A stretch of DNA of 48,094 nt from Hyphomicrobiales bacterium. Its GTDB lineage: Bacteria > Pseudomonadota > Alphaproteobacteria > Rhizobiales > Xanthobacteraceae. Position 1 is the first letter of the stretch, and each line of letters begins with the position of its first letter. Below are positions 31,707-48,094 of the stretch, piece by piece. Made by a program: the position numbers and the translations under genes. The notes under the pieces are model-generated. The model ran no database searches and had not been told where the DNA came from. It was given only the letters and a program-made list of their open reading frames with translations. The stretch lies in contig JACPOA010000010.1 of NCBI GenBank assembly GCA_016185205.1, positions 1 to 48,094 on the forward strand, given 5' to 3'.

Positions 31707-31707
<1 letters not shown>

Positions 31708-32615
31708 TGGGCAGCGCTGATGACATCCTGCTCCGCGTCGAGCATCTGACCATGCGCTTCGGCGGCTTGGTCGCGGTCGACGATCTGTCGTTTACGGCGC
31801 AGCAGGGCAACATCACCGCGCTGATCGGTCCGAACGGCGCCGGCAAGACCACGGTGTTCAACTGCATCACCGGCTTCTACAAGCCGAGCGAAGGCCGCCT
31901 GGGCTTGCGCCACGGCGACGCCGCGGTGTGGAGCGAGCTGGAAGCGCTCACCGACAGCGGCCAGCGCAGCCTGGCGCTGAGCCACGGCGCGCTCTACCTG
32001 CTCGAACGCATGCCGGATTTTCTCGTCACCCAGCAGGCGCGCGTCGCCCGCACCTTCCAGAACATCCGGCTGTTTCCCGGCATGACGGTGCTGGAAAACC
32101 TGCTGGTCGCCCAGCACAACCGGCTGATGCTGGCGTCGGGCTATACCCTGCTCGGCGTGCTCGGCTTTCCGTCTTATGCCGCGGCCGAACGCGCCGCCAT
32201 CGAGACGGCGCGCGATTGGCTCGATCGCATCGGTCTGCTTGGGCGCGCCGACGATCCGGCCGGCGACCTGCCCTACGGCGCGCAGCGGCGGCTGGAGATC
32301 GCGCGCGCCATGTGCACCGAGCCGGTGCTGCTCTGTCTCGACGAGCCGGCCGCCGGCCTCAATCCGCGCGAGAGCGCCGAACTCAACGCGCTGCTGCTGG
32401 CGATCCGCGACGAGCACGCCATCTCGATTCTGCTGATCGAGCATGACATGTCGGTGGTGATGGAGATTTCCGACCACGTGGTCGTGCTCGACTATGGCGT
32501 CAAGATCGCCGACGGCGCGCCGGCCGCGATCCGCGACGATCCCAAGGTGATCGCCGCCTATCTCGGCGTCGCCGACGAAGACGTCGCCAAGGTGGAAGCG
32601 GAGGTGGGGTTATGA
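31707..32615 (+). CDS. livG: Branched-chain amino acid ABC transporter ATPase LivG
   Basis: A 302-residue ATPase. Walker A GPNGAGKTT is at residues 41-49, the signature region is LPYGAQRRLEIARAM and Walker B VLLCLDEPAAG, with the H-loop IEHDMS. Between Walker A and the conserved ARTFQNIRLF there is an insertion of about 30 residues (GLRHGDAAVWSELEAL... LLERMPDFLV), which explains the length over the usual 255; similar inserts are seen in rhizobial LivG. It drives import with LivF. Its stop (TGA at 32613-32615) overlaps the ATG of the following DUF559 ORF by four bases; in most genomes livF follows directly. Confidence 0.93.
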
Positions 32616-33114
32616 CCGCACCGCGCACTCCAACCTCCCCCTGCAAGGCAGGGCTATCGCATGTTCAGGAGCATATCGACGAGGAAGCTGTCGTCCCAGG
32701 CAGCCCGTTTGAGTTTGCCTCGCAAAGAGATCTTTGTGTCGGGATGAGCGCGAGCGATATTGAGTGCAAGTCGCCGCAGAACGGCTTGCGGCGGGATCAA
32801 ATCGATAATCTGAGTTTCAGACGGCAGCATCCCGTCGGAGCTTTCACACTCGATTTTTATTGTCCGTCGCTTCGGCTCGCCATCGAAGTGGATGGCGGGC
32901 AGCACGCCGAAGGCATTGGAAAGCGTCGCGATGAACAACGGACGACTTGGCTCGAGTCAAAAGGGATCGTCATCATCCGCTTTTGGAATAATGACGTCCT
33001 AACGAATTTGAACGGCGTCTTGGAGGTAATCGCGCAGGTCGCTTCGCAACGTCGCGCGCTGACCCCCTCCCCAACCCTCCCCCTTTCAGGGGGAGGGAGA
33101 ACAAAGGCTGTGCC

Positions 33115-33118
<4 letters not shown>
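32612..33118 (+). CDS. DUF559 (Vsr-like nuclease fold) ORF inserted between livG and livF
   Basis: A 168-residue open frame containing a DUF559 core from about residue 65 to 143: FRRQHPVGAFTLDFYCP, LAIEVDGGQH and IVIIRFWNNDVLTNLNGVLEVI. The D, E-x-D-G and Q-H residues are those of the PD-(D/E)XK-type fold of Vsr/DUF559 endonuclease-like proteins; activity is unproven. Residues 1-60 and the Pro-rich tail (LTPSPTLPLSGGG) are translated repeat sequence, and the native start could be ATG 32744 (MSASDIECKS). It begins in an ATGA overlap with livG and ends in an ATGA overlap with livF, so it bridges the two. Its 5' part (32647-32774) is identical to the window's last 128 bases. Confidence 0.75.
32647..32774. 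repeat. Interspersed repeat, copy A (128 bp, identical to copy B)
   Basis: These 128 bases match 47967-48094 without a mismatch. Both copies are preceded by a C-rich stretch (CCTCCCCCT-like), which could form a hairpin with GGCAGGG. The DUF559 ORF runs through it. At the right end of the element a second palindrome, CCCTCCCCC/GGGGGAGGG (33075-33097), lies 17 bases before livF. Identity over the whole visible overlap suggests recent copying of the unit. The true left edge is probably near 32633 and the right edge near 33114. Confidence 0.9.
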
Positions 33119-33836
<718 letters not shown>

Positions 33837-33840
<4 letters not shown>

Positions 33841-34202: not shown

Positions 34203-34221
34203 CGTAACATTTAACCGTTAC

Positions 34222-34268
34222 CGCATGATCCCGAAAAGTGGGTACGGGTTTTCGGATAAGATCATGCG
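34222..34268. repeat. Palindromic interspersed repeat, copy 2
   Basis: CGCATGATC and GATCATGCG arms enclose CCCGAAAAGTGGG and GGGTTTTCGG; 44 of 47 bases equal 684-730. It lies between the small membrane gene and livK, 43 bases before the livK start, so it is part of the intergenic mRNA if the operon is read through. It could form a hairpin that sets relative livK expression. Confidence 0.88.
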
Positions 34269-34311
34269 CAAGCAATATCGAGCCTACCGGCTCCACCAAA
34301 GGGGAAGACGG

Positions 34312-47897: not shown

Positions 47898-47966
47898 GAA
47901 AAGCGTCTTCCGTTTGAATCGACGCGTGATCGCGCCGCGAACTCTTAATGCCCCCTCCCCCTTGTG

Positions 47967-48094
47967 GGCAGGGCTATCGCATGTTCAGGAGCATATCGAC
48001 GAGGAAGCTGTCGTCCCAGGCAGCCCGTTTGAGTTTGCCTCGCAAAGAGATCTTTGTGTCGGGATGAGCGCGAGCGATATTGAGTGCAAGTCGC
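47967..48094. repeat. Interspersed repeat, copy B (truncated by the window end)
   Basis: It is identical over all 128 visible bases to 32647-32774. A C-rich stretch CCCCTCCCCCTTG precedes it, and with GGGCAGGG it could form a hairpin. It lies 69 bases after the Cys-rich protein's stop codon. Whether it also carries a complete DUF559 frame cannot be seen. Confidence 0.92.

Follow-up and report, generated by a model that had tools for sequence, protein, structure and literature searches.

A Decayed DUF559 Gene between livG and livF and a Candidate REP-Like System of Palindromes and Nucleases

An open reading frame that lies between livG and livF in the genome of a bacterium of the order Hyphomicrobiales is real but chimeric: it is the decayed copy of a nuclease element bounded by palindromic repeats. 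On its own, this feature is an ordinary pseudogene-like remnant, whereas the system from which it derives is out of the ordinary. We propose, with a probability that we put at about two in three, that nucleases of the DUF559 family and the palindromic ends of their own genes constitute a system resembling REPs and REPINs, in which the nuclease would spread (or maintain) the gene-bearing units and, in trans, gene-free palindrome doublets, and of which livG–livF would hold a decayed copy. We describe the anatomy of the site, the bracketing of DUF559 genes by palindromes, the variation of the palindromes with their cognate genes, and a link between the two at the level of whole genomes.

Results

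A Chimeric Reading Frame at a Tight Operon Junction

The window, by which we mean the whole stretch of DNA that was analyzed (48,094 nucleotides), is contig C9 of a source assembly of 4.38 Mb in 112 contigs. It carries intact copies of livG (positions 31707 to 32615, forward strand) and livF (33115 to 33840, forward strand), which encode two ATPases of the same branched-chain amino acid ABC transporter. The product of livG matches the Pfam families ABC_tran (6.2e-27) and BCA_ABC_TP_C (5.8e-11) and has relatives in the genus; that of livF matches ABC_tran (1.4e-33). Between them, on the same strand, the chimeric frame runs from 32612 to 33118 and encodes 168 amino acids. As a first-pass annotation of the window had it, the frame shares an ATGA with the livG stop (32612 to 32615), and its own end overlaps the livF start in another ATGA. 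The same annotation took the overlaps as a sign that translational coupling had been kept and the hexamer ATGACC at both junctions as a possible target duplication. Neither reading is well supported: a frame that stays open across both junctions is no evidence for coupling, and the two copies agree in ATGACC alone, the ATGA being livF's own start over the livG stop.

Read from left to right, the frame consists of a short leader, one arm of a palindrome, the end of an insertion sequence (IS) read in antisense, the remnant of a DUF559 gene, and a palindrome, the first three of which supply its first 57 residues. The arm (32634 to 32648, CCTCCCCCTGCAAGG) is the left half of a 5' palindromic unit whose loop was cut by the IS, and its left end is the same as that of an intact doublet elsewhere in the genome (G000:C5:92591–92715). 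The IS end (32649 to 32785, reverse strand) corresponds to the C-terminus of a transposase that probably belongs to the ISAs1 family, the remaining IS being missing. The DUF559 remnant follows (32783 to 33040, forward strand), and then comes an intact 3' palindromic unit (33063 to 33099, CCCCCTCCCCAACCCTCCCCCTTTCAGGGGGAGGGAG), which is made up of an inner tag, CCCCCTCCCC, and a hairpin, CCCTCCCCCTTTCAGGGGGAGGG (33075 to 33097), and which folds with a calculated energy of −12.3 kcal/mol (DNA parameters). Palindromic sequence is indeed present at each end, as had been reported, but at the 5' end half a palindrome is all that is left.

The match to DUF559 (PF04480) is likewise genuine (88.7 bits as compared with a cut-off of 20.6, E 2.9e-25), but it is limited to residues 58 to 143 of the frame and to profile positions 24 to 107 of 109. 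An alignment shows that the window remnant lacks an N-terminal part that is present in 19 homologues. The remnant retains the conserved D, E-x-D, and H: D42, E53, D55, and H59 (numbered as in the domain of L031) are invariant in all 20 sequences, the remnant included, and are probably catalytic. A frame pieced together in this way from a palindrome, IS sequence, and a truncated DUF559 gene is unlikely to specify a working nuclease.

The IS stretch (137 bases) has 10 other copies in the genome, all of them within 90 nt of a contig end, which marks it as a repeat that breaks assemblies. At the far end of the window, a second half-palindrome (47954 to 47968) is followed by the same IS end (47969 to 48094), which runs off the contig; the window itself stops there because C9 does. 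A repeat of 128 bases had been noted at this place and assigned to the unit in which the nuclease gene travels. A near-identical stretch is present (141 nt, 97%), but it represents the end of the ISAs1-family IS and not a DUF559 unit. A longer copy of the IS (L004), when translated outward, reads IENVLHWTLDVVLDEDQARSRKDHAP...LLNMR-stop, the tail of a transposase. This tail of 72 residues matches the NCBIfam model for ISAs1 with 51 bits (E 1.2e-13), a partial match that stays below the cut-off of 70 set for the full protein; a Pfam search of the tail gave no match. The IS is not assembled in full in any of its copies.

The sequence departs sharply from the IS after 32785, and the 10 other IS ends found are all at contig ends, as might be expected if the frame were an artifact of assembly in which an IS end and a DUF559 gene had been misjoined at that position. 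We consider such an artifact quite unlikely, given that this genome has a gene-free doublet whose two ends match the outer ends of the insert. For the same reason, an element is likely to be present at livG–livF even if the join itself is wrong.

Palindromes in the Source Genome

The doublet in question lies on contig C5 (92591 to 92715). Its left hairpin, CCTCCCCCTGCAAGGGGGAGG, and its right hairpin, CCTCCCCCTTTCAGGGGGAGG, are the two ends found at livG–livF, and its two halves fold onto each other. Because both outer hairpins match, the livG–livF insert looks like a gene-bearing form of this doublet that afterward received the IS and lost sequence inward as far as DUF559 profile position 24. 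The right end of the window's 3' palindrome is the same as that of gene-free doublets in this genome (L015) and at L069.

The palindrome CCTCYCC-N3-20-GGRGAGG has 118 matches in the source genome, a few of them overlapping, as compared with one match for the reversed control. Four intact standalone DUF559 genes were found in the source genome, and every one of them is preceded by a palindrome and followed by an inverted counterpart, in a variant particular to that gene; at one of them (L032) the downstream palindrome is again cut by the IS. The four genes and the window remnant lie between neighboring genes and are bounded by palindromes.

The Junction and Others Like It in Relatives

We collected 110 loci of livG relatives, in which some genomes may be represented in both locus sets, and measured the distance to livF in 108; L048 (livF absent from the contig) and L062 (an impossible gap) were left out of the count. 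Among the named loci, those whose livG is closest to that of the window belong to metagenome-assembled genomes labelled Rhizobiales and Xanthobacteraceae. The gap is 60 nt or less in 99 of the 108 loci and larger in nine, including the window (499 nt). None of the other eight larger gaps exceeds 220 nt, and they therefore have no room for a DUF559 gene. Thus, 0 of the 107 other measured junctions could accommodate the gene, which agrees with the first-pass view of an addition to the junction. Among the larger inserts at livG–livF, that of L042 is one palindrome of the type seen on the left in the window, that of L069 is a complete doublet of the window's type, and that of L139 (a Bradyrhizobium) is a collapsed doublet, while L038, L064, and L106 hold other repeats that resemble CGTC REPs by eye. 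The doublet of L069 sits inside a 14-nt direct repeat, GTCGGCCTATGAGC, an isolated case.

Elsewhere in the liv operon, three further genomes of the genus (L160, L161, and L162) have a DUF559 gene immediately before livM. It lies between livH and livM in L161 and L162; the contig of L160 covers the livM side only. A further junction, hemE–hemJ, was read in the 30 loci available for 38 hemJ entries. Three of these carry a gene with palindromes and four carry palindrome remnants (that of L325 is doubtful), while 14 junctions are 20 nt or shorter, seven hold other inserts or spacers, and two are unreadable. Repeats resembling CGTC REPs (by eye) occur at hemE–hemJ in other genomes as well.

Palindromes Bracket Standalone DUF559 Genes

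We searched 43 genomes of the genus, at least 42 of which have DUF559 matches, and examined 104 standalone DUF559 genes, a set that includes the window remnant and stop-carrying copies and from which eight short or truncated matches, among the matches listed, were left out. The control consisted of 12 long DUF559 fusions (about 400 amino acids) from among about 38 fusion-type genes in the matches listed. The palindrome has the form CCTCYCC-loop-GGRGAGG and is accompanied by an inner GGG[AT]G[AG]GG tag. Bracketing was counted for the 96 of 104 genes with at least 200 nt on both flanks (eight short-flank genes were excluded). An exact palindrome is present on both sides of 78 of the 96 genes, a number that rises to 87 when one mismatch is allowed. 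None of the 12 fusions is bracketed on both sides, and a single one has a palindrome on its 3' side only; of control windows 1 kb away, 4 of 187 contain a palindrome.

The inner tag is located on the gene side of the hairpin at 169 of 181 ends, as compared with 2 of 187 controls. When the left flank was scored against the inverted right flank, the median was 60 for standalone genes (n = 99) and 23 for fusions (n = 12), with values of 22 for shifted windows (n = 88) and 29 for mismatched pairs (n = 1,500). Only 38% of the self scores lie above the 95th percentile of mismatched pairs, because the palindromes all resemble each other.

Breadth of the Association

Beyond the genus we applied to the inverted-repeat score a threshold of 35, which was set after the genus data had been seen. 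Of 29 loci that represent 29 other families of the class, 22 reach this threshold and seven fall below it, as against 0 of 27 controls. A phylum-wide set gave 12 of 25 passing and 13 below (0 of 25 controls pass), with 6 of 11 passing outside the class and 2 of 7 in family f24. In a plasmid collection from which 39 records were listed and nine named loci scored, three of the nine pass. These are loci of Azospirillum lipoferum (score 52, control 17), of a Deinococcus (41, control 19), and of Sinorhizobium meliloti (208, control 21), the last being a DUF559 gene with a 114-nt doublet on each side, the two copies inverted relative to each other. With a score of 29 (control 19), a cyanobacterial locus whose hairpins are of the CCCC..GGGG form stays below 35. 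Also below 35 are three loci of A. brasilense, one of E. coli, and one of N. gonorrhoeae, where the 160 nt viewed contain such a palindrome on just one side of the gene. The association of palindromes with DUF559 is weaker outside the class.

The two also go together at the level of whole genomes. Among 114 other genomes of the class, we scored strong DUF559 matches (at least 90 bits) and richness in palindromes (at least 10). Of 29 DUF559-positive genomes, 24 are palindrome-rich and five have fewer than 10, as compared with 4 palindrome-rich genomes among the 85 without DUF559 (Fisher test, 7e-16, GC content not being a covariate). Among genomes of at least 3 Mb, the corresponding figures are 19 of 20 and 0 of 24. 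The bracketing tests described above, which rely on proximity, are independent of GC content. No such link is seen for the Y1 transposase (RAYT) domain: 5 of 21 genomes with it and 23 of 93 without it are palindrome-rich (p 1), and those five also have DUF559. The source genome has no Y1_Tnp match over the cut-off (best 21 bits, cut-off 23).

Palindromes Vary with Their Cognate Genes

For 94 genes, we compared 4,195 pairs without a matching neighbor on either side, although contig ends near a gene could hide shared sites. DUF559 identity correlates with palindrome similarity across these pairs (rho 0.26), a value that was reached in 0 of 1,000 permutations (maximum 0.15). Palindrome similarity is 0.74 in the 83 pairs with a DUF559 identity of at least 0.6 and 0.35 to 0.44 otherwise, and in 80 of 94 cases the palindrome of the nearest DUF559 at another site is more alike than average. 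The window remnant fits this cognate pairing. Its nearest DUF559s (L230, L242, and L233) and the fifth-nearest (L244), at 53% to 46% identity, have palindromes with a loop of the TGAAA/TTTCA type, as does the window's 3' palindrome; the fourth-nearest (L162) has another loop type.

DUF559 as a Putative Vsr-Type Nuclease

A profile of the 20 DUF559 sequences finds the endonuclease-like protein 3hrl in the PDB with an E value of 1.4e-35 and, weakly (E 0.0044), the mobile intron protein 3r3p, which we take to be I-Bth0305I, a Vsr-like homing endonuclease. PDB chains ranked below these two (E 0.07 or worse), which include toxin B subunits, were taken as chance. YcjD detects Vsr by profile (PMC1189080). 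On the strength of that relationship and of the two PDB matches, we take DUF559 to be a PD-(D/E)XK nuclease of the Vsr type. Matches of DUF559 in PADLOC and PHROGs were weak and added no function.

Turnover

The 104 genes of the genus are spread over no more than 53 different sites, a figure that is too high wherever a contig ends. Many sites are common to several species, which argues that movement is slow, and some orthologous sites carry different DUF559 lineages, often with different palindromes. Direct repeats in the 50 nt outside each element, the mark of a classical transposon, are not in excess (mean 5.4 for an element's own flanks and 5.5 for mismatched ones, n = 87); this systematic comparison also speaks against the target duplication that had been proposed for the element's ends. 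In Legionella, repeated segments with transposase and DUF559 genes are described as hotspots of mutation and recombination (PMC12308824).

Polymorphism was followed in S. meliloti with three regions of CP090106, for which 4 of 165, 4 of 203, and 4 of 103 records, respectively, cover at least 80%; one search, which mainly matched an adjacent IS, was set aside. A doublet on pSymB is missing in strain R14, which was inspected, and, as judged by coverage, in CP130056. Since S. medicae retains part of the doublet, its absence in R14 is probably a loss. S. meliloti 1021 has another doublet, in place of which S. medicae WSM1115 has no palindrome and two S. fredii records show a repeat of another kind. 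The patterns at hemE–hemJ, at orthologous sites, and in S. meliloti fit gain and loss, with no insertion caught in the act. The ycjD gene of E. coli was also tried as a case of presence and absence and was rejected: a single place accounts for 80% or more of the query in 3,364 of 5,426 genomes, and three inspected genomes without the gene (L374 to L376) have efflux-pump genes after sapF and offer no clean empty site.

Discussion

How might the insert have arisen? At livG–livF, a unit consisting of a palindrome, a DUF559 gene, and an inverted palindrome would have come first; an ISAs1-family IS would then have entered the loop of the 5' palindrome, and a deletion would have removed most of the IS together with the N-terminus of DUF559. 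More generally, we infer from sequence comparison that DUF559 proteins bind, cut, and mobilize the palindromes. Each protein would recognize its own hairpins and cut at or near them, after which repair or replication would copy or excise the bounded unit, and gene-free doublets would be moved by DUF559 in trans. Cutting and repair would be the simplest route because no general target duplication is seen, an absence more in line with a nuclease than with a DDE transposase. The first-pass idea of a mobile unit borne on repeats therefore survives in outline, in that DUF559 genes occur in repeat-bounded units at many sites, operon junctions included, but not in its details, which overlooked the IS end and the chimera and gave weight to the hexamer.

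A broader interpretation, on which we are evenly divided, is that DUF559 proteins would be the mobilizing nucleases of a third, widespread superfamily of REPs, RIME-like repeats included. They would form a class of mobile element without a transposase, in which a small Vsr-type nuclease co-evolves with its palindromic ends and acts in trans on units with the gene as well as on doublets that lack it, and the class may extend beyond the Proteobacteria (one Deinococcus locus, and a cyanobacterial one that is below threshold).

Homing would offer another account, in which the nuclease cuts gene-free doublets and repair copies the gene into them, so that the doublets would be empty sites and not non-autonomous movers. 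The weak profile match to the mobile-intron protein 3r3p is in keeping with this account, as is the presence of different DUF559 lineages at some orthologous junctions, and PMC9403480 assigns a DUF559 gene to the EDxHD homing family. Homing leaves the spread of the gene-free doublets unexplained, however, and a site that holds different lineages often has different palindromes as well; on balance we find it somewhat unlikely. A role in the host or in the processing of hairpins could also be the source of the association: DUF559 would then be a housekeeping hairpin or mismatch nuclease of palindrome-rich genomes, and the palindromes would have moved by other means with the gene riding along. 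Many DUF559 sites are shared across the genus, as would suit a housekeeping gene, and VsrA of Caulobacter, which belongs to the DUF559 family, has been connected with cytosine methylation and has a predicted role in mismatch repair (PMC12907096). Such a nuclease would not be predicted to have several bracketed copies per genome (there are at least 10 DUF559 matches in one genome, fusions and fragments included) or a palindrome variant that tracks DUF559 similarity at unrelated sites, and Y1 transposases do not track the palindromes. We judge this account to be unlikely.

It could be argued, finally, that the palindromes are mere terminators or elements of mRNA stability, being hairpins at gene ends, and that the DUF559 genes arrived by ordinary horizontal transfer. 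But the palindromes are also found upstream, inverted and with the GGG[AT]G[AG]GG tag facing the gene; the long fusions are not bracketed (0 of 12); and many copies of the palindrome lie elsewhere. This makes the terminator account very improbable.

The proposed pairing of nuclease and palindrome is best seen against the REP and REPIN systems. REPINs are inverted doublets of REPs that are linked to RAYTs (PMC3116915), and these systems comprise palindromes arranged as inverted doublets, gene-free copies, a gene flanked by its own variant, and several pairs of variant and gene per genome (PMC3116915, PMC3733652). The system described here shares these traits: the partner gene has palindromes on both sides, the palindromes also turn up as inverted doublets, and their variant matches the clade of the partner. 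It differs in the partner, which would be a Vsr-like PD-(D/E)XK protein of the DUF559 family and not a Y1 HUH transposase, and in the tag, which is GGG[AT]G[AG]GG; GTAG/CTAC is rare, being found within 8 nt of 6 of the 181 ends. GTAG-type REPs have a partner, the RAYT, whereas CGTC REPs were reported to be without a dedicated transposase (PMC3733652). CGTC-tagged REPs resemble our palindromes in being short, tagged, and common in alphaproteobacteria, with lookalikes (by eye) at livG–livF and hemE–hemJ in other genomes, but CGTC/GACG occurs within 8 nt of just 6 of the 181 ends. The CCTCYCC palindromes and DUF559 look like a REP-type system whose partner enzyme is unrelated to the RAYT. We found no report linking DUF559 to REP-like palindromes in the open-access literature, where the link is apparently new, although it may have been described elsewhere.

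The doublets of S. meliloti (CCCTCTCCCCGC..GCGGGGAGAGGG with TGAGGGGC ends) look like what we presume to be RIMEs, the Rhizobium-specific intergenic mosaic elements. In S. meliloti, a DUF559 gene is enclosed by two inverted 114-nt doublets, whereas the literature examined, which mentions RIMEs (PMC2573895), has no RIME-linked gene. The EDxHD homing endonucleases (I-Bth0305I, PDB 3r3p) are related by profile, weakly as noted, but the DUF559 gene here is free-standing between palindromes, with no intron or intein seen. YcjD of E. coli and VsrA of Caulobacter belong to the same DUF559 family; the ycjD relative in L340 differs in having such a palindrome on the 3' side only (160 nt viewed).

Palindromic intergenic repeats are common in bacterial genomes. 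If the proposal is correct, a cognate nuclease would be a plausible engine for repeats of the CCTCYCC class, and DUF559, which Pfam lists as a domain of unknown function and which is present in E. coli as YcjD, would acquire a testable role. The livG–livF site would also illustrate the origin and decay of insertions where the genes of an operon closely adjoin. And if a nuclease does move DNA without a transposase, the result would be a compact type of element amenable to study in the laboratory.

Finally, we note the surroundings of the IS end itself. It ends beside a CCTCCCC arm in 9 of the 11 copies in the genome; a tenth copy is one base off, and one is without the arm. In adjoining the arm so regularly, this ISAs1-family IS resembles insertion sequences of the type of ISPpu9, which is said to insert into REPs.

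Palindromes as an Apparent Target of an Insertion Sequence

The palindromes that bracket standalone DUF559 genes appear also to be the target of an insertion sequence, which we assign to the ISAs1 family from a partial match, below the full-length cut-off, of the transposase tail of one copy (L004). This element seems to target the palindrome because the CCTCCCC arm adjoins nine of the 11 copies (window 32649-32785 and 47969-48094; L002-L011, which are further copies of the IS end in the same genome). At a Sinorhizobium meliloti locus (L347), the start of an ISRm16 element apparently lies within a palindrome.

Repeats and DUF559 Genes at Other Loci

Long inverted repeats flank the DUF559 gene at L283, a locus in a small genome of the same class, their CCCCC..GGGGG hairpins being set in AT-rich sequence (inverted-repeat score 141, as compared with 16 for the control), and this arrangement is perhaps another version of the palindrome-DUF559-palindrome layout. 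At L290, near-identical inverted repeats of about 130 nt lie on both sides of the DUF559 gene (score 201, control 20), and the unit is possibly a recent insertion.

Three further genomes from the genus (L160, L161, and L162) have a DUF559 gene immediately ahead of livM in the same liv operon, and in L161 and L162 livH is located upstream of the DUF559 gene.

Unrelated palindromic repeats seem to land recurrently at the livG-livF and hemE-hemJ junctions. Repeats resembling, by eye, CGTC-tagged REPs are found in other genomes at livG-livF (L038, L064, and L106) and at hemE-hemJ (L314, L321, and L325).

Finally, the window contains a 60-nt repeat (681-740 versus 34219-34278, 87% identity) and, at 1249-1750, repeats spaced at 42 nt, which would correspond to 14 codons if the region is coding.
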